A stretch of 64,000 bases of DNA. Source: Bacteroidia bacterium. GTDB taxonomy: Bacteria > Bacteroidota > Bacteroidia > B-17B0 > Aurantibacillaceae. Positions 6,909 through 63,008 of this stretch are shown piece after piece; the first letter of the stretch is position 1, and the number at the start of each line of letters is the position of its first letter. Position numbers and translations under genes: made by a program. The stretch is from positions 44,721 through 108,720 of the forward strand of contig JACMNO010000013.1 in assembly GCA_014378485.1 (NCBI GenBank), given 5' to 3'. Below the pieces are notes generated by a model. The model was not told where the DNA came from, did no database searches, and worked only from the letters and a program-made list of their open reading frames with translations.

Positions 6909-7379
6909 CTATTCAGTCTTGATCAATACCAGCTCTTTAAATTTATTACCTCTGTTCTTGTAATTATCAAAAGGATCAAAACTTGGACAGGCCGGTGAAA
7001 ATAAGACCGCCTGATTTTTAATGGCTTTTGCTTTTGAGAGAGCTACTGCACTTTCTAAGTTCTCAGCTACAATCACCATAACATGTTTATTAAAAATATT
7101 TTTTATTTCAGAGAAACGTCTTCCAAAATAAATCACTGTTTTAATGTTGTAATAATTGATATTTGCGAACCAGGAATAATCAGTTTTCAGGTCATCTCCT
7201 CCCAAAATAAGTACAATTTCTGTGTCCACAGAATTAATACTTTCAACGGCAAGTTTAGCGTTTGTTGCTTTGGAATCATTAATGAAAGTGACCTCATTAA
7301 TATTCGCAACAAATTCAAAGCTATGATCTGTTTCCCTACTTATTGAAAACGTTTTCTGGCCAAGTGCAGTCTCTTTCAT
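6909..7379 (-). CDS. Orphan MurD-like C-terminal (glutamate ligase) domain protein, 156 aa
   Basis: FEFVANINEVTFINDSKATN, LILGGDD and LFSPACPSFDPFDNYKNRGNKF align with the C-terminal third of the adjacent MurD (LEFVASINGIEFINDTKATN, LILGGQD, LLSPACASFDLFQNYEDRGVQF). It lacks the N-terminal and ATP-binding central domains. Confidence 0.88.
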   Translation of the reverse strand: MKETALGQKTFSISRETDHSFEFVANINEVTFINDSKATNAKLAVESINSVDTEIVLILGGDDLKTDYSWFANINYYNIKTVIYFGRRFSEIKNIFNKHVMVIVAENLESAVALSKAKAIKNQAVLFSPACPSFDPFDNYKNRGNKFKELVLIKTE

Positions 7380-39273: not shown

Positions 39274-39888
39274 TCAATAAATCTTATAAATAAGGCCAAT
39301 GCTCGCCAAATTTGTTTTATATCCTAAACACCCTTCAAAATAGACCCCAAAATCTTTGTAAAAATAATAACGGATTGTTGCTGTGATACCAAAGGCAGGT
39401 AGAATTGTTGATCTGTCAGAAACAGGTGTAATATCTTTTCCATTTACGGTTTTGGAATGATAATATTTAATTCTTACCCCAACTAAAATTCCACTACACA
39501 TGTCTAAATTTTTTCTTACAAAGAATGAATTATGATGCGTTGCTCTAATGGCAATAAGTGAGTTCGACCAAACATTTTCTTTACGACTATTTTGTGCATC
39601 TACATATTCTCGATTAGCGACCCAACTTGATAAATAAGGCCCTAGACCCCAGTATGCATTACTTGCATAAGGATAAATGCAGCGATCGACACCTATAGAT
39701 ATGAATGGCAATCGTTTATAATTTGTAGTTTCTTGTTTAAACTTATAGGTATCAAAGTGTCTTGATAAAGCTCCTGAACCAATATATAAAACAGTAACGC
39801 CTTTTCCAAATGACTGATGCGGTAATGTTACTGTTTGCGAATAACAAAAATGAGCAGTAAATAAAATAACACAAATATATTTTTTCAT
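39274..39888 (-). CDS. Small secreted/outer-membrane protein, 204 aa (last gene of exporter operon)
   Basis: Signal peptide MKKYICVILFTAHFCYSQ; beta-rich sequence; 10 bp downstream of the previous gene. Confidence 0.5.
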   Translation of the reverse strand: MKKYICVILFTAHFCYSQTVTLPHQSFGKGVTVLYIGSGALSRHFDTYKFKQETTNYKRLPFISIGVDRCIYPYASNAYWGLGPYLSSWVANREYVDAQNSRKENVWSNSLIAIRATHHNSFFVRKNLDMCSGILVGVRIKYYHSKTVNGKDITPVSDRSTILPAFGITATIRYYFYKDFGVYFEGCLGYKTNLASIGLIYKIY

Positions 39889-39898
39889 TACTTGATTT

Positions 39899-40483
39899 TT
39901 AATTTGTAATCCAATGTTCCAGTCCTACTTTAAATTGATTAATATAACCTCTAAAAATGGAAACTGTTATTTTCTTATTTAAATGATGCTTTTTTTTATC
40001 TATTTTAAACTCTTTAGGGAAAAATCCAAATTGCAAGTTAGCGTTTACTCTATCAAAATAATCCTGTTCATTACTACTATACAACATACCCTCTTTTGAT
40101 ATTTCAAATAAAGTTAACTCTATACTGTGAGCACTGGATATTCCATTAAACAATATTACACCATTAACCATCACTGCCTTTGCATTATGGTGAGTTAAAT
40201 CCAATAGATTAACTGTATTCAAATAGCCTTTAAAAATTAATTTAGTGTCATCCAAGTCGTCTAACCATTCATCTAATGTATCATTCCCGATTTTAAATTT
40301 GACAAAATCAATAACAATAATTAATTCATGGTTTTCAGGATTGTAAAAAATAACAGAGCTACTATTTAATGAAAAGTATTGCTGGTCATGGTAATGTGTA
40401 TTTACATAAGTTTTCGAAAATTGTATATTCTGAGCATCACTCCTATAACAAATCAGAAACAAAAATATTATTAAATATTTCAT
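39899..40483 (-). CDS. Hypothetical secreted protein, 194 aa (exporter operon)
   Basis: Signal peptide MKYLIIFLFLICYRSDAQ; KLIFKGYLN...MVNGVILFNGISSAHSIELTLFEI is weakly reminiscent of YceI-like lipocalins. Confidence 0.5.
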   Translation of the reverse strand: MKYLIIFLFLICYRSDAQNIQFSKTYVNTHYHDQQYFSLNSSSVIFYNPENHELIIVIDFVKFKIGNDTLDEWLDDLDDTKLIFKGYLNTVNLLDLTHHNAKAVMVNGVILFNGISSAHSIELTLFEISKEGMLYSSNEQDYFDRVNANLQFGFFPKEFKIDKKKHHLNKKITVSIFRGYINQFKVGLEHWITN

Positions 40484-40484
40484 T

Positions 40485-40784
40485 TTATATAGCCTTTATA
40501 TTTTTTCTTAGTAATGCGCCAAACTCTTCATTAATATGACTTACCGGTGTGGCATAAATAATCATATTTTTACTAAAAAACTTCTTTTCAATGTCCCTTT
40601 CAATAGTGCTATACAATAAAGCTTTTGTAATAAAGAACAGATGAATCGTTTTCTTTTGACCCGTAATAGTTATGATTTTGTTTGTATCAATATGTGTTTG
40701 TAACGCGTATTTTTGCTTAATAATATAAAGAGATATACTTCCAGCTTTTTTTTCATCATTTAAAATGATGTTAAATATTATCAT
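40485..40784 (-). CDS. Hypothetical 99-aa protein overlapping the end of the TolC-like gene
   Basis: Tight overlap with the upstream CDS and 1 bp from the downstream CDS; no signal peptide. Confidence 0.5.
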   Translation of the reverse strand: MIIFNIILNDEKKAGSISLYIIKQKYALQTHIDTNKIITITGQKKTIHLFFITKALLYSTIERDIEKKFFSKNMIIYATPVSHINEEFGALLRKNIKAI

Positions 40785-42175
40785 AGTTTATAGTTTAGAC
40801 TTCCGTTTAAATAAATAATATTGAGCACTGTTTTTATAAATTTTAATTTATATTCTGTTAGTTTTAATTCAGATTCAAGCCATTTATTTTCTCTCGTGTT
40901 CATCATAAACAAAGAGCTTTCTCCATTCGAAAATTTTAGTTTTTCCGCTTCAACAAGTTGTTTACTATAGTTGGCGGAGCGTTCTGCATTTTGAAGCTGA
41001 GCTGATAAAATACTTATTGTTTGTTTTAAAGTATTAATTTTAAAATTTAAATCGTTTGTTTTATTCGAAAGCTCTAAATTATTATTTTGAGAAATAATTT
41101 TTGACATTTTGTATTCATTAGCAGGGTTTCTCAATAACAGAGGAAAGGTCAAATTTACACCCCATTTATAATTGTTGTTAGAAAACATTGAATTCAATAC
41201 AGAACTGTTGCTAGATAGTACATTGTATTTTACATTTAAAACTGGTTTTATCATTTCTTTTTTTAATCTATTTTCTATTTCTAAAACTTTTTGTAAAGAA
41301 TTATATTTTGAAATTACCGGATTAGTCACAGGGTTTTGATATAAACTTTCAACTAGTATGATTTTAGCTTTATTAAAATAATAATCGAGGCTATCAAGTG
41401 GTTCAAAATTATTAGTAAAACCTGCCGGACCGTTGTTCTGCCAATTAAATGCAGAAAGATCATTTGCGCTTTTTTGATTGTCAATTAAAGCATTCTGTAA
41501 ATCCAATAATCGTGTTTGATAGAAAATGGCGGCTTCAATAGTATCTACCGCAGCTTTTTCTCCAATATTGGCAAGTGCTTCTATACCTGTAAGCCTTTGC
41601 CTGGCCGCTTCCATAAAATAATTATTTAACGCTATTTGTTTTGCATTAAATAACCACTCAAAATAACGTTGTGAAGATTCGAAGAGTAAATTATTGAGTT
41701 GTACTTGTTTTTCAGCATCGTAATAATTAAGATACTCTTTTGACTTTAAGACTTCTGCTCTTCGCTTATCGATTAATAAACCTTGTAAAACGCCAACTTC
41801 TAAACCTAGATATGGCAGCCCATTTTGTGGCGTATAGAGTTCAGGATTAATGTTTGTTCCTGTACCATAATCATAACCAAATTTTAAGTATTGAGAGGTA
41901 AATAGTGGTTGTTTAACTTCAGCATTTAAAGTGGTATAATAGTTATTTCCATAAAACTGTTTTTGATCGTAGTTTCCACTTATTAATGGATCGTAATTTC
42001 CACGGGCTGCTTTATATTGCAGCTTTCCATATTTTTTTTCATTTTCTGCCCTTTGTGCTAAAGGATTATTTTGCAATACGTTATTAATAAAATCATTGTA
42101 GCTTAACTTAATGCCGTTTTGACTTTTGCTTGACAGTGAGAATATGAGAAATATAAAAGCAAACGATAATTTCAT
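40781..42175 (-). CDS. TolC-family outer membrane protein
   Basis: Signal peptide; YNDFINNVLQNNPLAQRAENEKKYGKLQYKAARGNYDPLISG; internal coiled-coil duplication. Confidence 0.85.
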   Translation of the reverse strand: MKLSFAFIFLIFSLSSKSQNGIKLSYNDFINNVLQNNPLAQRAENEKKYGKLQYKAARGNYDPLISGNYDQKQFYGNNYYTTLNAEVKQPLFTSQYLKFGYDYGTGTNINPELYTPQNGLPYLGLEVGVLQGLLIDKRRAEVLKSKEYLNYYDAEKQVQLNNLLFESSQRYFEWLFNAKQIALNNYFMEAARQRLTGIEALANIGEKAAVDTIEAAIFYQTRLLDLQNALIDNQKSANDLSAFNWQNNGPAGFTNNFEPLDSLDYYFNKAKIILVESLYQNPVTNPVISKYNSLQKVLEIENRLKKEMIKPVLNVKYNVLSSNSSVLNSMFSNNNYKWGVNLTFPLLLRNPANEYKMSKIISQNNNLELSNKTNDLNFKINTLKQTISILSAQLQNAERSANYSKQLVEAEKLKFSNGESSLFMMNTRENKWLESELKLTEYKLKFIKTVLNIIYLNGSLNYKL

Positions 42176-42185
42176 AATAATATTA

Positions 42186-44423
42186 TTATTTATTTTTACT
42201 CGAATCTAAATTCACATAAAATTCAGGCGGAAAGCCGTTTGCTTTTCTCCATAGCTCATAAAATAGCGGCACATTTTTTAAAAGAGCAAAGCCTTCAACG
42301 CCACTTCCAATTTGTATTGCTTCCGGCCATGCTTTTCCGCTATTTTTTGCTAAAATCCTAAATTTTCCATTATCAGATAAAACTTTATCAAATGCAACAA
42401 TTTCTGATGTGTAAGTACCGTAACTTATACCTGGCCAACCTGAAAAAACAAAAGCAGGCCAGCCGTCAAATTGAAGTTGAACTTTCTGGCCAACTTGAAT
42501 AAGAGGCAAATCAATAGGATTAATATATAGTTCAACCACCTGTTCGCTATGTAAAGGTACAATGTTGCATAAAGAAGCTCCTTCTTTAATAATTTCTCCG
42601 ATACCCTGAATATTAGTTTTTGTAATGTAACCATTCTGAGGCGCCAAAACATAATAAAAACCTTTTCGTAAAGTATAATTTGCCAGCTGGTTTTGTAATT
42701 TTGTCAGTGCCCCCTCACCCTCATATAATAATGATAAAACAGAAAACTTATCTGATTCAGCCTTCATTAGTTTTTCTTGATATTCCTGTTGTATTGAATT
42801 TAAATCTATTTCCGAATTTAGAAATTCATTCTTTGTAGACATAAATTTGTTGTCAGCGGAAGTTTTTTTGGCAAGCGCTTCCTGAACTTTTATTCTTCGA
42901 TTTTCTAAATCTGTTTTAGATATTACACCTTTACCAAATAATTCTTCGTAACGTTTTAACTGTTCCTCTGCTACTTTAAAATTATTTGATGATGTGTGAG
43001 ATTCAATGCTATCTGTAGAGATTTTAATTTTAGCTTGTACAATTTTATTTCGGGCTTGTTCAATTTTTAAACTCAAGGATTTATTTAAAGCATTGATTTG
43101 CGAATTTACTGCGTTAATTTTATCTTCATAAGACTCTAATGTTGTTTCTTTTGAATCTATTATCTGTTCGGAACGGTTAATCAATTGAGGATCCATATAT
43201 TCATCTTTTATCTCCGAAATAAAAGCGATGGTATCGTTTTTATCTACCAAATCACCATCCATGATATACCACATTTCTATTCTGCCTGCTATTCTAGAAG
43301 TAATTGTTTGTGGTCTATTCTCTGGGTTTAGCGTTGTTACTTTGCCATTTGATTGAATATTTTGTGTCCATGGCAAAAACAAAATTATCACTGCAGTTAA
43401 AATTAAACTATACAAAGAGTATCTTATTACTCTAGAATATCGATGATTATAAGCTTGTGATTGACTTTGTAATTTTTTACTTTGGGTATCAAGTAAAGAA
43501 TATTGTGGTTGGTGGTTAAATACTTCTTCAATTTTGTATAGTGAAGTTATTATATCATAGCAAACACTTAAACTGCCAACTAACTTCTCTATAGAATTAA
43601 TAACCAAAAGTATAATAATCTCCGATGCTATAAATTGTCCAATATTTAAATCACCTCGTAAAACTAAGTAGGCACCAAAAAACAACAAAACACTTATAAA
43701 TAAAACTTTAAAAATAATAATTCCCTTAAATTGAGTCTCTAATACACTATAATGGTGTTTTCGATTATCAAAATATTGACCTAGTCTTTTTTCCGTTCCC
43801 GAATTTAAATCACTCTCGATATCATTTTTCAAAGCATACTTCTGAAACCATTCCAAGAGTTTATATTTTTGGTTGGACGTTTCTATGTTTGTATCAATAC
43901 CCTTTTTGCCGTAATAACTAACTATAAAATAAAATATACCCCCTAATAAAATGACAAATACTAAAAACCATGAACTATATATTGGTAGAATTAATAAACC
44001 AAAAATTATACTGATAACTGAAAACGATAAATCTAATAGTATCTTACTAATTCCCTTTTGCAGTGTTACTACTTCTAAATATTTATTTATTTTAGGTAAG
44101 ATTTCAATTGAAGGTGTTGAATCCAATAAAAAATTATTTATTCTCGAAGTCAAATCGCCAAATATTTTTTGATGGAGTGTTTCATTTATTCGCATTTGCC
44201 ATAACTGAAAAAACCCGATAAACACAGTTATAATTATAACAATACAACTTAATAAAATAAGGGAAGCAGAAAAACTTCCTGCCATTATATAAGTAATAAT
44301 ACCTTGAATCCCCATTGGGATAGAAATATATAGGACTGCTTGTAAAAGAGCTAACACATATATTTTATTGATTATAGCTCTTTCGTTATGAAGCCACCTA
44401 AATAATAATTTTGCTTTGTTCAC
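42186..44423 (-). CDS. Fusion protein: ABC exporter type-1 transmembrane domain (no nucleotide-binding domain) + HlyD/MFP periplasmic adaptor
   Basis: Residues about 1-300 are a multi-TM ABC type-1 TMD (NKIYVLALLQAVLYISIPMGIQGIITYIMAGS...GQFIASEIIILLVINSIEKLVGSLSVCYDIITSLYKIEEVF). Residues about 335-745 are HlyD-like (NGKVTTLNPENRPQTITSRIAGRIEMWYIMDGDLVDKNDTI...coiled coil...VLAPQNGYITKTNIQGIGEIIKEGASLCNIVP). No Walker A, signature or Walker B motif seen. Confidence 0.85.
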   Translation of the reverse strand: MNKAKLLFRWLHNERAIINKIYVLALLQAVLYISIPMGIQGIITYIMAGSFSASLILLSCIVIIITVFIGFFQLWQMRINETLHQKIFGDLTSRINNFLLDSTPSIEILPKINKYLEVVTLQKGISKILLDLSFSVISIIFGLLILPIYSSWFLVFVILLGGIFYFIVSYYGKKGIDTNIETSNQKYKLLEWFQKYALKNDIESDLNSGTEKRLGQYFDNRKHHYSVLETQFKGIIIFKVLFISVLLFFGAYLVLRGDLNIGQFIASEIIILLVINSIEKLVGSLSVCYDIITSLYKIEEVFNHQPQYSLLDTQSKKLQSQSQAYNHRYSRVIRYSLYSLILTAVIILFLPWTQNIQSNGKVTTLNPENRPQTITSRIAGRIEMWYIMDGDLVDKNDTIAFISEIKDEYMDPQLINRSEQIIDSKETTLESYEDKINAVNSQINALNKSLSLKIEQARNKIVQAKIKISTDSIESHTSSNNFKVAEEQLKRYEELFGKGVISKTDLENRRIKVQEALAKKTSADNKFMSTKNEFLNSEIDLNSIQQEYQEKLMKAESDKFSVLSLLYEGEGALTKLQNQLANYTLRKGFYYVLAPQNGYITKTNIQGIGEIIKEGASLCNIVPLHSEQVVELYINPIDLPLIQVGQKVQLQFDGWPAFVFSGWPGISYGTYTSEIVAFDKVLSDNGKFRILAKNSGKAWPEAIQIGSGVEGFALLKNVPLFYELWRKANGFPPEFYVNLDSSKNK

Positions 44424-44437
44424 AGTAATAATTTCCG

Positions 44438-44445
44438 CAAATATA
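44438..44445 (-). promoter_or_regulatory. -7 element TATATTTG for the exporter operon
   Basis: Minus-strand TATATTTG about 15 nt from the ATG at 44423. Confidence 0.6.
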
Positions 44446-44461
44446 GTATATATATATACAG

Positions 44462-44478
44462 TAATAGTATTACTATTA
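44462..44478. promoter_or_regulatory. Putative TetR operator (perfect 8-bp-arm palindrome)
   Basis: TAATAGTA-T-TACTATTA between the divergent promoters. A second palindrome, GTATATATATATAC, lies at 44446-44459. Confidence 0.6.
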
Positions 44479-44486
44479 TATTTAAT

Positions 44487-44494
44487 TACATTTG
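44487..44494 (+). promoter_or_regulatory. -7 element TACATTTG for the TetR gene
   Basis: TACATTTG 21 nt upstream of the ATG at 44515. Confidence 0.5.
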
Positions 44495-44514
44495 CACCAA
44501 GAAATATAGTTTAC

Positions 44515-45192
44515 ATGGAATTGGAAGTAAGAATTAAAATGAATGATAAATTGTTTATTCGTGATCCTGAAGTTACAATTTTAGGACAAACAATTATAAA
44601 GCAAGGTCTCGTTTTAATAAACAAGCTTGGTTTTGAAATATTTACTTTTAAAAAATTAGCTTCCGAAATTAATACGACAGAAGCTAGCATTTATCGCTAC
44701 TTTGAGAATAAACATAGGTTGTTAGTGTACCTGATTACATGGTATTGGAGTTATCTTGAGTATAAAGTTCTTTTCAGCTTAAATAACATGAAAGACCCTG
44801 AAATTAAACTTAAAACAATAATAAAATTAATTGCCGAAGAACCCTTGAATAAAGGTTTAAATTCGGACTTTTTATCAGAATATGAAGCTTATAAATTAGT
44901 AATAAGTGAAGGATCAAAAGCTTATCTAACCCACAACGTAAGCAAAGATAATAAAAATAGGATTTTTAAACCTTACAAGGATTTGTGCGAACGTTTTTCT
45001 TCAATAATTAAAGAATATAATCCAAAGTATGAATTCCCACATTCTTTGGCAAGCTCACTTTTAGAGATTTCATATTCACAAAAATTCTTTAAGGAAAATC
45101 TCCCCTCTTTGACTGATTTTGCAAAAGAACAAGACAATAAGAAAATGATTGTATTTTTAGAATCTTTGCTTTTCAACTCTTTAAAACACTAA
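44515..45192 (+). CDS. TetR/AcrR family transcriptional regulator
   Basis: HTH: GQTIIKQGLVLINKLGFEIFTFKKLASEINTTEASIYRYFENKHRLLVYLITWYWSYLEY. The ORF track starts at 44416; ATG at 44515 is compatible with the promoter. Confidence 0.85.
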   Translation: MELEVRIKMNDKLFIRDPEVTILGQTIIKQGLVLINKLGFEIFTFKKLASEINTTEASIYRYFENKHRLLVYLITWYWSYLEYKVLFSLNNMKDPEIKLKTIIKLIAEEPLNKGLNSDFLSEYEAYKLVISEGSKAYLTHNVSKDNKNRIFKPYKDLCERFSSIIKEYNPKYEFPHSLASSLLEISYSQKFFKENLPSLTDFAKEQDNKKMIVFLESLLFNSLKH

Positions 45193-51500: not shown

Positions 51501-52178
51501 TTGCAAATTTCTTTGGTATTTGCAGATTCAGGTAAATATTCAATCATATTAGTGGTTCAAAACTCGACTACAGGTTGTATGAATACAATGATAAAACCAA
51601 ATTATATAGAAGTTTATCCGCAGCCCATCGCATCCTTCTGCGCAAACCCGCCTTCAGCAAGTATTATTGATCCAAACATTGATTTCGTGAACACTTCGCA
51701 AGGCGCTACAAGTTATATGTGGGATTTTGGAGACCCTGTTGCCACAAACGGATCAAATAATTCAACGGCTGTTAATCCTAGTCATGCGTATAGTTATACA
51801 GGTGAATATGCGGTTAATTTAATAGCGGTTTCACCAAAAGGTTGTAGGGATATTTCCAGAATTTTGGTAGAAATAACTCCCGAGTTTGCCTTGTATATTC
51901 CTAATGCCTTTACCCCGGATGAAAATGGAAGGAATGACATCTTCCAGCCTTTAGGCATTGGTATAGACGAAGAGAATTACCGTATGTATATTTTTGACCG
52001 TTGGGGTGAGAGCATTTTCACAAGTAATAACTTCAGAAAAGGATGGGACGGTCCTTTGAAAGGTGTTTCAAAGAAAGCTCCGCAAGGTGTTTATATTTAT
52101 AAATTGCAAGTTACAGACACACAAGGTGGCAAACATCCTTATGTGGGGCATGTAACGGTGATTAGAAAAAACGAATAA
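51501..52178 (+). pseudogene. 5'-truncated PKD + gliding-type T9SS C-terminal domain fragment
   Basis: Closely matches the last ~190 residues of the 3420-aa protein (e.g. WDFGDPVATNGSNNSTAVNPSHAYSYTGEYAVNLIA, FALYIPNAFTPDENGRNDIF). No signal peptide, TTG start. Confidence 0.75.
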
Positions 52179-52745: not shown

Positions 52746-55700
52746 ATGAAACACTTATTTACACTGTTCTTTTCAATTTTCTCTATTTCTGCTGTAGCTC
52801 AAAACTATAACATGGATAATACTTCTGTGACTACATGCGGAGGAAATTTTTATGATTCTGGTGGAAGTGCCTCGAATTACGGAGCAAGCGAAACATTTAC
52901 AAAAACATTTTGTCCATCAACAGTTGGTGATAAACTTAGTTTTAATTTTACGGCATTTCAAACTGAGTCAGCTACTTATGATTACTTAACCATATATGAT
53001 GGGCCAAACACCAGTTCCCCAACTTTAGGAACCTATGCGACGACCGTTGGACCGGGTATTGTACAGGCCACATCAACCAATACATCTGGTTGTTTAACTT
53101 TTGTTTTTAAATCAGATGCAACTGTTTTTTATTTAGGATGGGCGGCAACTATAACATGCATCACACCCTGCCAAACGATTAATGCTGTATTTAATAGTTC
53201 TTCGCCGGCGCCTGGTGCAGGAAGTATCATAAGAGTTTGTCAGGGACAATCGGTGACATTTAATGGCAGTGGTACATTCTCTGGTGGTGGAGGTGGGGCG
53301 GTTTATAGCTGGAATTTCGATAACGGCTTAACTGGTTCGGGAACTTCAGCATCTACCACTTATACTGCTCCGGGAGTATATGTGGTAAATTTAAATATTA
53401 CCAAAGCTGGTTGTACAAACCAAAATAAAATTAATCAAATTGTTCAGGTATCTACTACTCCTTCTTTTAGTGCCACAACCACGAGTACTACATCAATTTG
53501 TTTAGGACAATCCGCGACATTAATAGGTTCGGTAACACCCACGCCTTTTCAGGCAAACTGTACTCCACCAGTCAGTGGAACTACATTTTTACCAGATGGC
53601 TCGGGATTGTCTTATAGCACAGCTATTACAGTAGATTGTTATGGATCTTCCCAGACAATAACATCTGCTGCTGATATTAATAATATTTGTTTAAATATGG
53701 AGCACTCCTACCAGGGAGATTTATCAATTCAAATTATTTGCCCAAATGGCCAGATATGTAATTTGAAAGATTATCCTGGCGGTGCTTATAATTATTTGGG
53801 AGCACCCTTAGATGATCCCGCAGTTGGACCGGGCGTTGGAGCAAATTATTGCTTCGCTATGTCAGGAACTGTATTGTTGAGTAACGGACCTACTATAGCG
53901 GGACAAGGAACCCCAGCCTATACATCAATTGCGGCAGGCACCTATTCTCCCACTGGCAATTTTAGTAGTTTAATAGGATGCCCATTAAATGGTAACTGGA
54001 CAATTAAAGTAACAGATAATTTAGGTTCTGATAACGGATATATTTTTAGTTGGGATGTGAATTTTAATGCAGCTGTTCCTGCTTCTCAATCATTTACTCC
54101 AACTATTGTTTCTCAAACGTGGTCAGGTCCAAATATTACCTCTACTGCAGGTAATAATGCAGTCATAACACCAACTTCTACAGGAACTAAATGTTACACT
54201 TTAACTGCAGTGGATAATTTTGGATGTTCTTATATTAGTGGCGGGCATTGTATTACGGTTAATCCGGGTCCTTATGCAGGAGTAAGCAATACATTAGCGG
54301 TTTGTAATTCAGCAGCCTCATCAAATTTATTTGGTTTATTAGGAGCTGGAGTTTCCACTATAGGAACCTGGAGCGGGCCTGCTCCTGCATTAACAGGAGG
54401 AAATCTTGGAACATTTAATCCTGCCTCATATACAGCAGGAACTTATAATTACACATACACTGTTCCTGCATCCGGCGGTTGTCCGGCAGTAACAGCGGTG
54501 GTCTCTGTAACGATAAGACCCAATCCCGCAGCAACTTTATCTTTTACAAATCCATCCTGTGGAAACTCGAATGGCATTATAGTGATAAATAATACCTCCA
54601 GTGGAGGACAAACTATTTCAAGTTTTGCTAGTAGTTTAGGCTCAATATCGGGGCAAACCGTTACCGGCTTAAGCGCACCCTCTACACCTGTAATTACACT
54701 AACTAATAATTTTGGTTGCACGTTTACAGTTTCTGCAACTTTAACAATGACTCCCGGGCCAACTAATATTGCTGTAACCCCAACTAATGCAACTTGTGGT
54801 AACAATAATGGTAGTATTACTTTTAATTCACCAACCGGAGGAACCTCGCCATATACATACGCTATTAATGGTGGCGCTTTTACAGCTACTTCACCCACAA
54901 TCAATCTTCCTGTAGGAACCTATTCAGTTACAGTAAAGGATTTTAATGGTTGTGTATACACAGAAACAACCAGTATCACTAATATTCCGGGTCCTACCGC
55001 AATAGCAGGAACAACAACCCAGGCTAGTTGTAATACAAACAATGGAACATTTAATGTAACAGGCGTAACCGGTGGAACAGCGATCTATACATTTAGTGTA
55101 AATGGTGTGGCAACAACTAGTTTAACTTCAGGATTAGCAGCTGGTACGCATACCATATTAGTAAAAGATGGTAATGGATGTACATTCAGTACAACCTTTG
55201 TAATCGGAACAGCCAATGGCCCATCAAGTTTTGTTGTAAATACCACTAATTCAAATTGCGGATTGGCTAATGGAACATCCACTGTATCAGGAGTAGTGGG
55301 CGGAACTCCTACCTATAGTTTTTCTTTTGACGGAGGAGCGTTTGGAACAGGAACAACAGCTTCTGGTTTAACAGCAACTACACATACAGTGATTGTGAAA
55401 GATGTGAACTCCTGTACGATAACAGCAACCTATAGTGTATCCAACAATCCACCTCCAACTGCATCCATAACAAGTTCAGCAAATGTATTATGTAACGGTG
55501 GAATAACAGGAAGTTTAACAGCAGTGCCGATTGGCGGCACTGGCCCTTTTACATACACATTAACTTCTCCAACACAAACAAACTCCACAGGAGCATTCAC
55601 TGGTTTAGCGGCAGGTACTTATAGTGTTACAATTAAAGATATTTTTAGTTGTACAGCAACCGTTAGTGCGGTGATCAGTCAGCCAACTATATTAACAGGA

Positions 55701-58700
55701 ACTACCAGTTCCATACCGGTGAATTGTTTTGGAAATTCAACCGGAACAGTATCAGCGGGAGGAGCAGGAGGAACAGGTCCTTATACTTATTTATGGAGCT
55801 TAGGAAGCAGTACGTTAGCCACTGTAGGTGGAGCAGCAGCAGGAACATATACAGTAACTATCAGGGATGCTAACTTATGCGTTATCACCAGAACTGTAAC
55901 TGTTACCCAACCGGCTTCCTTAACGTTAACTTCCACTTTAACACCTGCAACATGTGGAAACGCCAATGGTTCAGGAACAGTAACCGTCGGAGGTGGCACA
56001 TCGACTTATAATTTTAACTGGAGTAATGGTGGATTAACGAATGTTTTATCTGCAGCATCTGCTGGAACCTATTCGGTAACTGTCACAGATTTTAATGGAT
56101 GTATGTTAACCAGGACAGTGGCATTAACAAATACGCCAGGGCCAACCGCCATAACAGGAACAACTACTTTGGCAGGGTGTAATTTAACTAACGGATCACA
56201 TAATGTAACAGGTGTAACAGGTGGAACAGCCGCATATACATATAGTGTAGATGGTGTTGCTACTCCAAGTTTAACCTCAGGTCTGGCAGCAGGCACTCAT
56301 ACTATTTTAGTTCGAGATTTCAATGGCTGCACATTTAGTTCAACATTCAATATTAATACAGCTAATGGCCCAACTACAGCAACTATTCTTACAACGAATG
56401 CAAGTTGCGGATCAGCCAATGGAACAGCAACATTAACTGGCGTAACCGGTGGAGTAGCTCCTTATCAGTATTCATTTGATGGAAGTGCATTTGCAGCAGG
56501 AACTACTACAACGGGTTTGGCAGCAGGAACTCATACTGTAATAATAAGTGATGTGAATTCATGTACACTTGCAGTGACTTATACTGAGTTTAATAATAGC
56601 GGGCCAACTGCTTCCGTAACAAGTTCATTAAATGTACTTTGTAATGGAGCATCTACAGGAAGTTTAACTGTTGCTCCTTCAGGCGGAACAGCCCCATTTA
56701 CTTATACATTAACAGCACCAACGGTAACCAATACTACAGGGAACTTTACAGGATTACCTGCCGGTACTTATAACATGACGGTAAAAGACTTCTCGGGTTG
56801 TACAGCAACAGCATCGGTTACTTTAATCCAACCAACTCCTGTAACTCTAACGGTTACATCATTGCCAGCTTTATGTTTTGGATCATCAACCGGAACGGTT
56901 TCTGCTTCAGGATCAGGTGGGAGCGGAGCTTATACTTATTTATGGCCAGCTTTAGGATCAAGCGCCAATGCGACAGTTAGTAACGTAGCAGCAGGAACCT
57001 ATTCAGTAACTCAAACAGATGGAAACGGATGTTCAATTACTCAATCTATTACAGTTACACAGCCAACATCTTTAACTTTAACTTCTACTTTAACTCCTGC
57101 TACTTGTGGTAATGCCAATGGTTCAGGAACCGTTACTGTAGCAGGAGGAACACCAGCTTATACATATAATTGGAGTAATAGTGGTATTACTTCTGTATTA
57201 GGCGGAGTATCTGCAGGAACATATACATTAGTTGTAACGGATTTCAAAGGCTGTGTATTAACAAGAACTGTAAACGTTACAAATATTCCAGGGCCAACCG
57301 CTATAACAGGAACAACTACGTTGGCAGGTTGCGGTTTATCCAACGGATCTTATAATGTAACAGGAGTAACTGGCGGAACATCGGCTTACAGCTTTAGTGT
57401 AGATGGTATTGCGACAACAAGTTTAACTTCAGGTCTTTCAGCCGGAACGCACTCCGTTGCGGTAAGTGATTTTAATGGATGTATATTCATTACAACTTTT
57501 AATATTAATACGGCAACTGGTCCCACAACAGCATCTATAGTTAGTACAAATGCCACTTGCGGATCTGCAAATGGAACAGCAACGGTTGTATCCGTAACCG
57601 GTGGCTCATCACCTTACCAATATTCATTTGAGGGTAGTCCATTTGCGTTAGGAACAAATACTATTGGTTTACTAGCCGGCACCCATACTGTTACTATCAA
57701 AGATGCTAACTCTTGTACATTAACTACAACTTACAATGTATTGAATAATGGTATGCCGACAGTTTCTGTTCCTACTACAACCAATACAACCTGTTTTGGA
57801 AGTTCTAACGGAGGATTTGCTGCCTCTGGATCAGGTGGAAGTGGAGCACCATTTACCTATACTTTAACTTCTCCTTTTCAGAATAACGGTACGGGTATCT
57901 TTACTGGTTTACCCGCAGGTACCTATAATGTTATAACAAAGGATATTGCAGGATGTATGGCTTCAACAAGCGTAACGATCACCCAACCCTCAGTGGTAAC
58001 TTTAACTCCGACGTCGGTTCCAGCCAAATGCTTTGGCGCTGCTACAGGTACCATTAATATTGCAGGCGCAGGAGGCACAGGAGCTTATCAATATGCATTG
58101 AACGGAGGAGCCTACCAGGCTTCAGCTACCTATACTGCCGTAGGAGCAGGTATTTATAATATTTCAATTAAGGATGCTAATGGTTGTACCGCCACACAAA
58201 CTGTGCAGGTTGCTCAGCCAACCGCTTTAGCGATTACGGTTTCTTCTCAAAATGCAAACTGTATTGCGGCTAACGGTATAGCTACTACAACAATAACGGG
58301 TGGTACACCAATATATACTTATACCTGGACGGGTGGCGGAGGAGCCGCCTCAACTTCAAATGGCGTTATTACTGGAAATTACACGGTAACTGCCACTGAT
58401 GCAAACGGATGCGTGATATCAAGTCCGGTGGTGATAGGTTTAACTCCTGGTGGAACGGCTACAATCACTTCACTTTCAAATGTAACATGTAATGGCGCAG
58501 GAAATGGAAGTATGACAACGGGCATGATTGGTGGTGCGGCTCCATTTACGTATTCCTGGACTCCTGGAGGACAAACATCCGCTACAGCGGTTAATCTGGT
58601 CCCTGGAACTTATACGTGTCAGGTAACAGACTTTTATGGTTGCAAATCCACAGTAGCAGGCATAATCACTCAACCACCGACATTAACTGCCATCATGAAC

Positions 58701-61700
58701 TCCAATAACGTAAAATGTTATGGAACAGCTACCGGTACGGTATCTGCTGCGGGTACAGGTGGAACAGGTCCTTATACATACTTATGGCCAACGATTCCAA
58801 GTACTTTATCAACGGTATCAAATGTTTTGATCGGTAATTATAATTGCAATATTACAGATGCCAATGGCTGTACAATTACTCAAAGCATTTCAGTTACCCA
58901 GCCAACTTCCATCACGTTAACATCAACAGTAACTACAGCTAACTGTAACCAGGCTAACGGTTCGGCTACTGTAATTGCTTCAGGTGGCGCACCGGGTGCC
59001 TATACTTACACCTGGAGCTCAGGTTCAAACGCAGCAGCTCAATCCGGATTATTAGCAGGAACTTATACTATTCAGGTTCAGGATGCGAACAATTGTATTG
59101 AAATTGTTTCAGCAACGATTCCTAATATGGTTGGTCCTGTGATCAGTATAGCAAGCCAAACTAACGTAAGTTGTTTTGGAGGTTGTAACGGAGTTGCAAC
59201 AACAGCTGTATCCGGAGGAGTTGGCACGTATACTTATTCCTGGAGTAACGGTAACGTTTCATCCATTGCTCCTAATCTATGCGCACAGATCTATACAGTA
59301 TCCGTTACCGATGGGGCAGGATGTGTATCCTCTACTAGCGTAACGATTACACAACCTACTCCTTTAACAGTGGGTATAGTTGCCAATAATCCAAAATGTT
59401 TTGGTGCAATTAATGGATATGGAATTGCAGCCGCCTTAGGCGGAACACCCAATTACACTTATTCATGGTCAGGCGGTGGCGGAAACTCGGCGACTAGCAG
59501 TCCATTGGGCGCAGGAGGTTACAACCTATTAGTAACAGACGGAAACGGTTGTACGGTAACATCCACGATGACCCTTAATAATCCACCGGCCATGGCAGCA
59601 AGTATTACTTCAACTAATGTGAGCTGTTTTGGAACCTGTAACGGAACCGCCATAGCAACCAGCACAAACGGTATTGGAGCCGTTGGTTATTTTTGGGTTG
59701 GAGGATCAAGCCCTATTGCCTCCCAGACTGCAAGCAGCTTATGCGCAGGAACTTATACCATGGTTGCAACGGATCAAAACAGTTGTACAGCCAGCGCAAT
59801 CATTACTATTACTCAACCACCGGTATTAACGGCCAATATTTCTTCAACAGGAAGTGTGACCTGTAACGGAGGTAACAATGGGTTTGCTGTAGTTTCAGCA
59901 GGAGGAGGAACACCAACGTATTCCTATACATGGAGCGGTGCAGCCTCAACCAGCGGAAACAGTGCTAATGCAAACACCTTGCCGGCAGGTGTATATGCGG
60001 TAACCGTTATTGATACCAAAGGCTGTTCAGTAACAACCAATGCCACAATCATTGAACCGGCGCCATTTACTGCGACCTTAACGCCAACCAATGCAAAGTG
60101 TAATGGTGTGTGTGATGGAACAGCAAATATTGCCTTTTCAGGTGGTGCGGGAACAACAACCTTCTTATGGCAACCGGGGTTACAATCAGGAAACTTTGTG
60201 AATAATTTATGTGCAGGAGGTCAGACAGTAACAATCACATCTAACGGATCATGTCCTACGATATTAACCTTTACTTTAACTGAACCTGCCTTATTAACGG
60301 CTGTAGCTTCCGCAACCACTTCAAACTGTGGTCAAGCTAATGGTAAGACCTGTGTAGTGGTATCCGGTGGAACTTCACCCTTTGCCAGTACATTATGGAG
60401 CAATGGTGTCAATACATTATGTAACAATAATATTTCGGCCGGAGCGTATAACTTTGCGGTTACGGATGCCAACGGATGCATTGCCAATGCCAGCGGTCTT
60501 GTAAATGACATTGCTGCCCCGATAGTAGCTGTTACAAGCCAGACAAATGTGAGTTGTTTTGGTGGAAGCAATGGTGGCGCAATAGCTACTGCTAGCGGTG
60601 GTGTTCCAAGTTACACGATCTCATGGTCAGGCGCGCAGTCCTCAGCCAATACCACATTAAACCCTGTGAATTTTGGTGCAGGATTGCACAACATCACTGT
60701 AGTTGATGCCGCCGGTTGTATTGGAACAGCTTCAGTAAATATTACTCAGCCAGCACAACTTGTAAGCGCCATCGGTAGTTTTACTAATGTTACCTGTAAT
60801 GGCTTAAGCAATGGTGGCGCAACTATATTAACAAATGGCGGCACAACACCATATAGTTATACGTGGACACCAAGTGCACAAACATCGTCTGTTTTAGCGA
60901 ACGTTCCTGCCAACACCTACACTGCTTTTGTAAGTGATGGAATGGGCTGTGTAACTTCTTCGCAGGTAGTGATCTCTCAGCCTCAGGCCTTGATTTTAGC
61001 CTCATCCGGTTTCTCAAACATATCCTGTTTTGGAGGCACTAACGGCCAGATCTTTACAACAGTTCAAGGTGGTACTCCGGGTTATACATATGTGTGGAAC
61101 CCGGCTCAGTCTGGTAACAGCGGCGTGATAGGAAGCTTGCCAGCAGGCGGTTATTCATTAACGGTAACAGATTCTAAGACCTGTTCCATCAATGCTAACT
61201 TTACGATCCTAGAACCATCCATACTAACAAGTACGTATACATCTTTACCGGCTAAGTGTGGCCTTACTAACGGATCCTCCACTGTAACAGTAGGTGGTGG
61301 AACACCATCCTATACATTGAATTGGAACACTGCCCCCGCACAACAAGGATCAATAGCCAGTAATATGGCACCTGGCAGTAACTGGCAATGCGTGATCACC
61401 GATCTTAACGGATGTTCAATTACCCAAACCGTTAATGTGAACAACGCTCCAAGCCCTATCTTCTCAAGTCCGGTTGTAACAAAGCCAAGTTGTTTTGGAA
61501 TGTCGAACGGAGATATCACTGTAAATTATACTTCCGGAACTGGCCCTTATACTGTGATCTGGTCAAGTCCTATTTCACAAACCACAACCGCGTCAGTTTT
61601 AACGCAAAGTATAGCAGGTATTGCCCAAGGTGCTTATACAGCTACTTTGACAGACGTGAACGGATGTGCAACCTCACAACTCATTTCTGTTACGCAACCG

Positions 61701-63008
61701 GGTAAGCTGATACTTATGGTAAGTCCTGACGTGACCATCTGTTACGGACAATCCACCCAATTAAGTGTATCAGGGCAAAGCGGTTCACCTGCTTATACTT
61801 ATACGTGGACACCAAATTCATTTACAGGTGGAGGGCCACATACAGTTAATCCAACAACAATGACCAGTTATAATGTCATGGTAGGCGACACTAAGGGTTG
61901 TACAGATGGACCAAAAGTGATCACTATAAATGTAACACCGCTATTAAGTATAGCGGGACGCTCGGTTACTATATGTGATGGAGGTTCAGCCATTTTTACA
62001 CCAACAATTACCAGTCCGGGCAACGGGGGAGCTTATTCTTACACATGGAGTCCTGCGGCAGGTAATGTAAATTCGATCATGCCAACAGGTCAGGCTTTAA
62101 CTGCGGCAACAACAGTTACCTATGCTCTTATCGTGAGTGACGGATGTACATTGCCATATGCTTCAACTGTATTTACTTTAGTAACAAACCCATTGCCTAC
62201 AGTAACTTTTACGGCAAGTACAGTAGAAGCCTGTGCGCCGGCGAATATTGATTTCATGGCAACTCCGGGTTCATCTGGCAATTATAGTTATTCCTGGATC
62301 AGTGACAATAAAGATCAAATGGGAACTACTAATCCATTAACATACAATTATGCATTAGCAGATACTTTCTCGGTTAAACTTGTAATCATGGATCTGGCAA
62401 CAGGGTGTTCCAATACGGAAATAAAAAATAATTATATCCTGATCAATAAACCACCGGTGGCTTCATTCTATGCTGATCCGCCAAAGGCAAGTATTTTGGA
62501 TCCTAATATTAATTTCGTGAATACATCACAGGGAGCAACTAGTTACTTTTGGGATTTTGGAGACCCTGTTGCATTAAACGGATCAAATAATTCAACGGTA
62601 GTTAATCCTAGCCATGGATATAGCAACACAGGTGAATATGCGGTCAATTTAGTGGCTACTTCTATCAAAGGCTGTAAAGATATTGCGAGAATCTTAGTGG
62701 AGATCACCCCAGACTTTGCACTCTATATTCCAAATGCTTTTACGCCGGATGATAATGGTAAAAACGATGTGTTCCTGCCAATGGGTGTGGGCATCGATGA
62801 AGAAAATTTCCGGATGGATATTTTTGACCGATGGGGTGAGAACATATACCATACAAATGAATTCAGAAAAGGATGGAATGGTATGGTGAAAGGTGGTTCT
62901 AAGCTAGCACCACAAGGTGTATACGTTTATAAATTACAGGTTACAGATACACAGGGCGGAAAACATCCCTTTGTTGGCCACGTGACGGTGATCAGGAAAA
63001 GCGAATAA
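52746..63008 (+). CDS. Giant SprB-repeat surface adhesin (3420 aa): CUB-like, PKD, P-domain-like, about 31 SprB-type modules, PKD, gliding-type T9SS C-terminal domain
   Basis: Signal peptide MKHLFTLFFSIFSISAVAQ; repeated C-x-G-x(2-3)-NG ... GGTxxYTYxW ... AGTYxVTVxDxNGC modules; C-terminal IPNAFTPDDNGKNDVFLPMGVGIDEENFRMDIFDRWGENIY...GVYVYKLQVTDTQGGKHPFVGHVTVIRK. Confidence 0.93.
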   Translation: MKHLFTLFFSIFSISAVAQNYNMDNTSVTTCGGNFYDSGGSASNYGASETFTKTFCPSTVGDKLSFNFTAFQTESATYDYLTIYDGPNTSSPTLGTYATTVGPGIVQATSTNTSGCLTFVFKSDATVFYLGWAATITCITPCQTINAVFNSSSPAPGAGSIIRVCQGQSVTFNGSGTFSGGGGGAVYSWNFDNGLTGSGTSASTTYTAPGVYVVNLNITKAGCTNQNKINQIVQVSTTPSFSATTTSTTSICLGQSATLIGSVTPTPFQANCTPPVSGTTFLPDGSGLSYSTAITVDCYGSSQTITSAADINNICLNMEHSYQGDLSIQIICPNGQICNLKDYPGGAYNYLGAPLDDPAVGPGVGANYCFAMSGTVLLSNGPTIAGQGTPAYTSIAAGTYSPTGNFSSLIGCPLNGNWTIKVTDNLGSDNGYIFSWDVNFNAAVPASQSFTPTIVSQTWSGPNITSTAGNNAVITPTSTGTKCYTLTAVDNFGCSYISGGHCITVNPGPYAGVSNTLAVCNSAASSNLFGLLGAGVSTIGTWSGPAPALTGGNLGTFNPASYTAGTYNYTYTVPASGGCPAVTAVVSVTIRPNPAATLSFTNPSCGNSNGIIVINNTSSGGQTISSFASSLGSISGQTVTGLSAPSTPVITLTNNFGCTFTVSATLTMTPGPTNIAVTPTNATCGNNNGSITFNSPTGGTSPYTYAINGGAFTATSPTINLPVGTYSVTVKDFNGCVYTETTSITNIPGPTAIAGTTTQASCNTNNGTFNVTGVTGGTAIYTFSVNGVATTSLTSGLAAGTHTILVKDGNGCTFSTTFVIGTANGPSSFVVNTTNSNCGLANGTSTVSGVVGGTPTYSFSFDGGAFGTGTTASGLTATTHTVIVKDVNSCTITATYSVSNNPPPTASITSSANVLCNGGITGSLTAVPIGGTGPFTYTLTSPTQTNSTGAFTGLAAGTYSVTIKDIFSCTATVSAVISQPTILTGTTSSIPVNCFGNSTGTVSAGGAGGTGPYTYLWSLGSSTLATVGGAAAGTYTVTIRDANLCVITRTVTVTQPASLTLTSTLTPATCGNANGSGTVTVGGGTSTYNFNWSNGGLTNVLSAASAGTYSVTVTDFNGCMLTRTVALTNTPGPTAITGTTTLAGCNLTNGSHNVTGVTGGTAAYTYSVDGVATPSLTSGLAAGTHTILVRDFNGCTFSSTFNINTANGPTTATILTTNASCGSANGTATLTGVTGGVAPYQYSFDGSAFAAGTTTTGLAAGTHTVIISDVNSCTLAVTYTEFNNSGPTASVTSSLNVLCNGASTGSLTVAPSGGTAPFTYTLTAPTVTNTTGNFTGLPAGTYNMTVKDFSGCTATASVTLIQPTPVTLTVTSLPALCFGSSTGTVSASGSGGSGAYTYLWPALGSSANATVSNVAAGTYSVTQTDGNGCSITQSITVTQPTSLTLTSTLTPATCGNANGSGTVTVAGGTPAYTYNWSNSGITSVLGGVSAGTYTLVVTDFKGCVLTRTVNVTNIPGPTAITGTTTLAGCGLSNGSYNVTGVTGGTSAYSFSVDGIATTSLTSGLSAGTHSVAVSDFNGCIFITTFNINTATGPTTASIVSTNATCGSANGTATVVSVTGGSSPYQYSFEGSPFALGTNTIGLLAGTHTVTIKDANSCTLTTTYNVLNNGMPTVSVPTTTNTTCFGSSNGGFAASGSGGSGAPFTYTLTSPFQNNGTGIFTGLPAGTYNVITKDIAGCMASTSVTITQPSVVTLTPTSVPAKCFGAATGTINIAGAGGTGAYQYALNGGAYQASATYTAVGAGIYNISIKDANGCTATQTVQVAQPTALAITVSSQNANCIAANGIATTTITGGTPIYTYTWTGGGGAASTSNGVITGNYTVTATDANGCVISSPVVIGLTPGGTATITSLSNVTCNGAGNGSMTTGMIGGAAPFTYSWTPGGQTSATAVNLVPGTYTCQVTDFYGCKSTVAGIITQPPTLTAIMNSNNVKCYGTATGTVSAAGTGGTGPYTYLWPTIPSTLSTVSNVLIGNYNCNITDANGCTITQSISVTQPTSITLTSTVTTANCNQANGSATVIASGGAPGAYTYTWSSGSNAAAQSGLLAGTYTIQVQDANNCIEIVSATIPNMVGPVISIASQTNVSCFGGCNGVATTAVSGGVGTYTYSWSNGNVSSIAPNLCAQIYTVSVTDGAGCVSSTSVTITQPTPLTVGIVANNPKCFGAINGYGIAAALGGTPNYTYSWSGGGGNSATSSPLGAGGYNLLVTDGNGCTVTSTMTLNNPPAMAASITSTNVSCFGTCNGTAIATSTNGIGAVGYFWVGGSSPIASQTASSLCAGTYTMVATDQNSCTASAIITITQPPVLTANISSTGSVTCNGGNNGFAVVSAGGGTPTYSYTWSGAASTSGNSANANTLPAGVYAVTVIDTKGCSVTTNATIIEPAPFTATLTPTNAKCNGVCDGTANIAFSGGAGTTTFLWQPGLQSGNFVNNLCAGGQTVTITSNGSCPTILTFTLTEPALLTAVASATTSNCGQANGKTCVVVSGGTSPFASTLWSNGVNTLCNNNISAGAYNFAVTDANGCIANASGLVNDIAAPIVAVTSQTNVSCFGGSNGGAIATASGGVPSYTISWSGAQSSANTTLNPVNFGAGLHNITVVDAAGCIGTASVNITQPAQLVSAIGSFTNVTCNGLSNGGATILTNGGTTPYSYTWTPSAQTSSVLANVPANTYTAFVSDGMGCVTSSQVVISQPQALILASSGFSNISCFGGTNGQIFTTVQGGTPGYTYVWNPAQSGNSGVIGSLPAGGYSLTVTDSKTCSINANFTILEPSILTSTYTSLPAKCGLTNGSSTVTVGGGTPSYTLNWNTAPAQQGSIASNMAPGSNWQCVITDLNGCSITQTVNVNNAPSPIFSSPVVTKPSCFGMSNGDITVNYTSGTGPYTVIWSSPISQTTTASVLTQSIAGIAQGAYTATLTDVNGCATSQLISVTQPGKLILMVSPDVTICYGQSTQLSVSGQSGSPAYTYTWTPNSFTGGGPHTVNPTTMTSYNVMVGDTKGCTDGPKVITINVTPLLSIAGRSVTICDGGSAIFTPTITSPGNGGAYSYTWSPAAGNVNSIMPTGQALTAATTVTYALIVSDGCTLPYASTVFTLVTNPLPTVTFTASTVEACAPANIDFMATPGSSGNYSYSWISDNKDQMGTTNPLTYNYALADTFSVKLVIMDLATGCSNTEIKNNYILINKPPVASFYADPPKASILDPNINFVNTSQGATSYFWDFGDPVALNGSNNSTVVNPSHGYSNTGEYAVNLVATSIKGCKDIARILVEITPDFALYIPNAFTPDDNGKNDVFLPMGVGIDEENFRMDIFDRWGENIYHTNEFRKGWNGMVKGGSKLAPQGVYVYKLQVTDTQGGKHPFVGHVTVIRKSE
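54987..57287. repeat. Higher-order tandem repeat (two full units of 1149 and 1152 bp, followed by a diverging third)
   Basis: The PGPTAI(A/T)GTTT boundary recurs at 54987, 56136 and 57288. Each unit carries the same order of five SprB modules. Confidence 0.85.

Follow-up and report, generated by a model that had tools for sequence, protein, structure and literature searches.

An ABC-exporter membrane domain fused to a HlyD-type adaptor and lacking its nucleotide-binding domain: a possible ATP-independent tripartite exporter of Bacteroidota

The locus described here lies in a 64,000-nucleotide stretch of DNA (the window) from a Bacteroidia bacterium of the family Aurantibacillaceae, corresponding to positions 44,721 to 108,720 of contig JACMNO010000013.1 in assembly GCA_014378485.1. 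Positions 42186-44423 on the (-) strand of the window hold a single open frame of 745 aa, with a GTG start and no internal stops, which encodes a transmembrane domain (TMD) of the ABC-exporter type joined to a HlyD-type adaptor and lacks a nucleotide-binding domain (NBD). Genes for a TolC-family channel and for proteins of 99, 194 and 204 aa follow on the same strand, separated in turn by a 10-bp gap, a 4-bp overlap, and gaps of 1 bp and 10 bp, and a TetR-family gene is divergent from them. An original prediction, made from the sequence alone, had described the continuous frame, the tightly packed TolC and small-protein genes and the divergent regulator, and our reading of the frame and the coordinates agreed with it.

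The fusion protein comprises an exporter TMD (residues 1-302, 43518..44423, (-)) with six transmembrane (TM) helices and eroded intracellular loops ICL1 and ICL2, a linker (residues ~303-329), and an adaptor portion of the HlyD/membrane fusion protein type (42186..43436, (-)), which includes its own TM helix (residues 330-349) and an intact coiled-coil hairpin (residues 412-584). In scans with profile hidden Markov models (HMMs), ABC_membrane matched residues 22-176 with an E-value of 2.5e-5, under the Pfam cut-off for the window member, and this match was present in 20 of 21 aligned homologues. The adaptor side matched HlyD_D23, HlyD_3 and type_I_hlyD. No ABC_tran match was found in the fusion protein, and Pfam scans of it and of 20 homologues gave no match to the SbmA_BacA profile. 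The structure of residues 1-350, predicted by AlphaFold with 105 aligned TMDs, had a predicted local distance difference test score (pLDDT) of 91 and a predicted template modelling score of 0.85, and its nearest PDB structures were the ABC exporters PCAT1, BmrCD, TmrAB, McjD, HlyB and PrtD. The full-length model (pLDDT 68) resembled EmrA/MacA/HlyD adaptors, and the best PDB match of the adaptor half was 4tko, of the HlyD/EmrA type. The profile scans and structure predictions thus agree with the original prediction, which had an ABC TMD running directly into a HlyD adaptor and had named structure prediction as a check. It had also noted the absence of any ABC ATPase gene elsewhere in the window; reading by eye of the open reading frames (ORFs) of at least 90 aa, with no one-by-one profile scan, likewise revealed none that was ABC-ATPase-like.

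The homologue search covered 100 relatives, and 61 genomes of the window's family were examined. A complete NBD-less fusion was found in 22 of these 61, the window's own included, with 51-80% identity to the window protein (51-100% when the window's own is counted), and in three more the fusion was interrupted by contig ends. Additional fusions were present in named genomes, all of them metagenome-assembled genomes (MAGs) of Bacteroidota. Fusions of the main type in other families of the class were, in four of five cases, 56-70% identical domain by domain, which suggests horizontal spread, and a second, more distant type (L146, L147, L150; 36-37% identical) occurred in Flavobacteriales MAGs. 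A TolC gene adjoined the fusion at all 21 flanked loci (L031-L051). As judged from dN/dS values of 0.04-0.085 in close pairs with unsaturated dS, the fusion TMD is under strong purifying selection; the adaptor was better conserved still (81% versus 74% identity in L031). The fusion thus recurs across many genomes and genera and in several families. The original prediction had itself allowed that intact relatives might expose the fusion as a strain-specific deletion or an assembly error. Since the fusion is conserved so widely, this did not hold, and together with a pseudogene it can be practically dismissed, given an uninterrupted frame in many genomes and the low dN/dS.

Other Bacteroidota carry a TMD-NBD gene (frame of ~510-740 aa) together with a separate hlyD. 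We surveyed the NBD motifs of 45 such NBD-bearing sequences, a few of them duplicates. The LSGGQ signature was retained in none of them, being typically replaced by LPKSI or LPRSV, and the H-loop histidine was missing in 44. The Walker B aspartate was replaced by glutamate in 32 of 45, the catalytic glutamate was aligned in just 11 (34 having none aligned), and several sequences lacked a P-loop entirely. In the same comparison, the genome of the window supplied four exporters whose NBD motifs were canonical. In five relatives that were scanned with Pfam, the ABC_tran score ranged from 71 bits down to no match. Three relatives of 511-519 aa (L061, L267, L268), found in one family and on long branches, with an NBD remnant devoid of a P-loop in L061, are apparently intermediate stages of NBD decay. 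Many NBD-bearing relatives (L058, L059, L060, L062, L066, L067, L257) bear a long N-terminal extension of ~130-190 aa ahead of the TMD; the two that were scanned (L060, L066) gave no peptidase C39 match. Frames of ~1010 aa had suggested a TMD-NBD-HlyD triple fusion; at the three loci checked, these proved to be two adjacent genes.

A further form of NBD loss was found in some Cytophagales and other families, for example in Fibrella rubiginis, as TMD-only genes of 334-361 aa beside hlyD and tolC. These loci (L241, L243, L246, L148/L237, L250, L258, L259, L260, L263) have a separate hlyD, and tolC where the flank reaches. In the tree, the TMD-only genes and the fusions formed distinct clades, the former being sister to an NBD-bearing protein of their own family, and a single NBD loss behind all NBD-less forms was rejected (approximately unbiased (AU) test, p 2.8e-7). 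On this phylogenetic evidence, there were at least two losses of the NBD, one accompanied by fusion and another that left a TMD-only gene of ~340 aa by hlyD. A single origin of the two fusion types, which an earlier tree had split, was compatible with the data (AU p 0.86). Because the signature is gone in 45 of 45 and the H-loop histidine in 44 of 45 NBD-bearing relatives, decay of the NBD apparently preceded its deletion.

We then compared the TMDs with and without an NBD. The ICL2 core was 35-37 aa long in 73 of 73 NBD-bearing relatives, 22-36 aa (median 29) in the main fusions and 23-30 aa in the second fusion type. Identity within ICL2 fell from 0.61 in NBD-bearing relatives to 0.32 in fusions, and that of the ICL1 loop from 0.64 to 0.36. 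The TM segments of the fusions retained identities of 0.67-0.83, and the TM helices and the LQKG segment of ICL1 were conserved equally well or better in fusions as compared with NBD-bearing relatives. Residues E81, K123, E268 and K280 were invariant in all 105 TMDs and E279 was nearly so; E268 and E279/K280 are located in TM6, and position 268 is hydrophobic in canonical exporters.

The genes downstream of the fusion differ in their conservation. The TolC-family outer-membrane channel (464 aa; 40781..42175, (-)) matched PF02321 (OEP) with an E-value of 3.8e-24. The 99-aa protein (40485..40784, (-)) is, according to its family profile, a CutA1 homologue with a PII-like fold: the profile matched CutA1 structures (E 3e-6) and relatives of the protein matched PF03091 (best E 9e-9), the window protein alone being too divergent to score. 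It has homologues at 13 of the 22 fusion loci. Immediately upstream of some NBD-degenerate relatives (L060, L062, L067) there is likewise a CutA1-like ORF. The small proteins had been put forward as substrate, chaperone or outer-membrane factors; the 99-aa protein has a regulator-like fold and shows no evident sign of the first two roles. The 194-aa protein (39899..40483, (-)) is apparently secreted and weakly YceI-like: three of five family members matched PF04264 (YceI), the best with an E-value of 0.004, all under the cut-off, and no PDB match was found for it. The 204-aa protein (39274..39888, (-)) has an apparent signal peptide and an aromatic last residue, features with which a small outer-membrane barrel is possible, and matched NF047659 weakly (E 2.3e-5; 24 bits, the cut-off being 125). 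Both are patchy in distribution, with homologues at 5 and 8 of 22 fusion loci, respectively.

The divergent TetR/AcrR-family regulator (44515..45192, (+); PF00440, E 1.6e-7) lies close to the fusion at most loci. Its predicted start, a TTG at 44416 that would overlap the fusion gene, was not upheld, and alignment to a homologue favoured the ATG at 44515. Between the two genes is a palindrome, TAATAGTATTACTATTA (44462..44478, without strand), a candidate TetR operator. Most related loci also carry its core, ATAGTAWTACTAT, upstream of the fusion, and it is likely the operator. The extended 15-bp palindrome has a single exact copy in the window's genome, at the fusion promoter; a wider regulon was therefore discarded. 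Where further copies occur, in G059, G060 and G015, they fall within long frames. A family genome without a fusion match (L280, G024) encodes a TetR protein 54% identical to that of the window, with the same AATAGTAWTACTATT operator; its divergent neighbours are genes for a bestrophin (PF25539) and for a carbonic anhydrase, which might offer a clue to the signal that regulators of this family sense.

Elsewhere in the window, we noticed by eye a 156-aa ORF resembling the C-terminal domain of MurD (6909-7379, (-)), which in the cell-wall cluster has the full-length murD on one side and an ftsW-like gene on the other, a secreted repeat protein of 3420 aa with a C-terminus of the gliding-motility/type IX secretion system kind (52746-63008, (+)), and a short ORF (51501-52178) whose C-terminus is near-identical to that of the repeat protein.

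How the fusion system may work can be considered from these data. We judge the chances to be evenly balanced that it is an ATP-independent tripartite exporter, descended from an ABC exporter like that of the type I secretion system (T1SS) and likely driven by an ion gradient. It would span the inner membrane, the periplasm and the outer membrane. The sequences show a decayed NBD in the related family with TMD-NBD, HlyD and TolC, and in the lineage of the window the NBD is gone and the TMD is joined to the adaptor; decay would have come first and deletion afterwards. The known assembly of three HlyB dimers with six HlyD, a 1:1 ratio (PMC11026475), accords with one fused chain for each subunit of the adaptor, so that six fusion chains could make three TMD dimers and one adaptor hexamer docked on TolC. 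The TMD would still alternate its access or gate, powered by an ion gradient acting on the charged TM6 residues E268 and E279/K280. Precedents may be seen in SbmA-like transporters, which originated from full ABC transporters, have shed both the NBD and the coupling helices and work through a glutamate ladder driven by protons (PMC13316013), and in MsbA without its NBD, which performs drug/proton antiport (PMC4979069). TetR would act on the palindrome to repress the cassette. From the cytosol, the CutA1-like protein may control activity in the way that proteins of the PII type gate other transporters. The broader proposal falls somewhat short of an even chance: that a natural, widespread class of tripartite exporters of Bacteroidota has given up ATP hydrolysis, the NBD having decayed and then been deleted at least twice, and is now ion-driven, the fused form being a pump and adaptor in one chain.

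Several observations weigh against ion-driven export. The AlphaFold model is a monomer. Walker A persists in many decayed NBDs, as does an acidic residue in Walker B, with Glu and Asp swapped, so that residual ATP binding or slow hydrolysis is possible in the NBD-bearing relatives. The LQKG coupling-helix segment of ICL1 remains conserved in fusions, and the TMD-only genes retain a full-length ICL2, meaning that erosion of the loops was not part of every NBD loss. E268 and K280 could form a structural salt bridge. Their invariance extends in equal measure to the NBD-bearing relatives, so that their origin does not coincide with the loss of the NBD. The stronger conservation of the adaptor also suits the main rival explanation, in which the TMD dimer is a scaffold or passive conduit that anchors and spaces the adaptor hexamer, the substrate entering from the periplasm or moving down its gradient. 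With a TMD that had stopped pumping, the NBD would not be needed, in keeping with its decay and repeated loss, and the fusion would serve to enforce the 1:1 ratio. We regard this as unlikely, though a serious contender, since a pure anchor should drift, yet strong purifying selection acts on the TMD interior, which keeps its invariant polar and charged residues, and since the adaptor already has a TM helix of its own.

Power supplied in trans, as the original prediction had suggested, would require docking on the TMD by either a housekeeping NBD or another ABC exporter. In its favour, the window's genome has ~33 NBD matches above the Pfam cut-off, and the ICL1 coupling segment remains conserved. 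Against this, ICL2 of the fusion is shortened and variable, and the NBDs of the relatives are already without catalytic motifs. The genome-wide search for a stand-alone NBD, which had been named as a check, found none of the fusion's family in 18 fusion genomes; the best matches were whole exporters or generic NBDs with ~30% identity. Because the loops that contact the NBD are eroded and no family NBD was found, we consider an ATPase in trans very improbable. In a further reading the TMD-adaptor, with its CutA1-like and TetR partners, would detect a signal in the envelope or control another pump instead of exporting. CutA1-like genes beside the fusions and beside some NBD-degenerate relatives speak for it, as does the fact that some ABC-type folds with reduced ATPase activity serve as regulators. 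Such a role is hard to reconcile with the presence of TolC beside the fusion at all flanked loci and with the intact adaptor hairpin, which point to a conduit, and we think there is little chance of it.

ABC exporters are defined by ATP hydrolysis. To our knowledge, the natural exception among proteins with a TMD of the exporter type is SbmA, for which the intermediate steps have mostly been inferred from sequence. Here an apparent path is seen in living relatives, from TMD-NBD proteins with broken motifs through NBDs without a P-loop and TMD-only genes to the TMD-adaptor fusion with eroded loops. This makes it possible to test directly, in a T1SS-like tripartite machine, how primary transport gives way to secondary (or passive) transport. 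In Bacteroidota, the common annotation 'ABC transporter ATP-binding protein' beside HlyD and TolC may in many cases be given to proteins with no ATP hydrolysis. The fusion would also fix the TMD:adaptor stoichiometry, which would be useful for structural work on such assemblies.

Neither such a fusion nor a T1SS-like family with degenerate NBDs turned up in the mostly open-access literature searched; a graspetide paper (PMC8939145) proved to be unrelated. The system resembles type I secretion by HlyB/HlyD/TolC, and by PrtD and PCAT-type exporters, in its TMD fold, HlyD-type adaptor, TolC-type channel, operon logic and 1:1 ratio of TMD to adaptor, the adaptor and TolC being encoded beside the inner-membrane component. 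In contrast to those systems, it has no ATP-driven ABC ATPase, its TMD and adaptor are one chain, it is apparently TetR-controlled, it has no C39 or C39-like domain, and no recognizable RTX or leader-peptide substrate was seen. As compared with a type IV/B ABC exporter, the six-helix TMD is present whereas the NBD with Walker A, LSGGQ, Walker B and H-loop is absent. The degenerate-site heterodimeric exporters TmrAB, BmrCD and TM287/288 share partly degenerate NBD motifs, but they keep one competent ATP site per dimer, while the fusion family shows no signature, no H-loop and no partner gene, and then no NBD. With SbmA/BacA-like (SLiPT) transporters the fusion shares an NBD-less ABC-type TMD fold, reduced coupling loops, a conserved intramembrane glutamate and an origin from full ABC transporters. 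SLiPT proteins lack both NBD and coupling helices; in the fusions the NBD is absent, ICL2 is eroded and the ICL1 segment kept, and in TMD-only genes ICL2 is kept. SbmA differs in that it imports and has extra TM0 helices, and the fusion comes from a separate PF00664/T1SS-like lineage with a HlyD adaptor and TolC. The NBD-deleted laboratory constructs MsbA-MD and LmrA-MD show that an NBD-less exporter TMD can run proton-coupled drug transport (PMC4979069), but these are artificial truncations without adaptor or TolC, while the fusion is a natural gene. EmrAB-TolC is alike in its HlyD/EmrA-type adaptor and in a secondary-active pump that works with TolC; EmrB, however, belongs to the major facilitator superfamily and is encoded separately, whereas the pump part of the fusion has the ABC TMD fold and is fused. 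Taken together, these comparisons suggest a conduit of the T1SS/EmrAB type that is perhaps SbmA-like in its working and is a member of neither group, as it lacks the NBD of ABC and T1SS exporters and does not match the SbmA profile.

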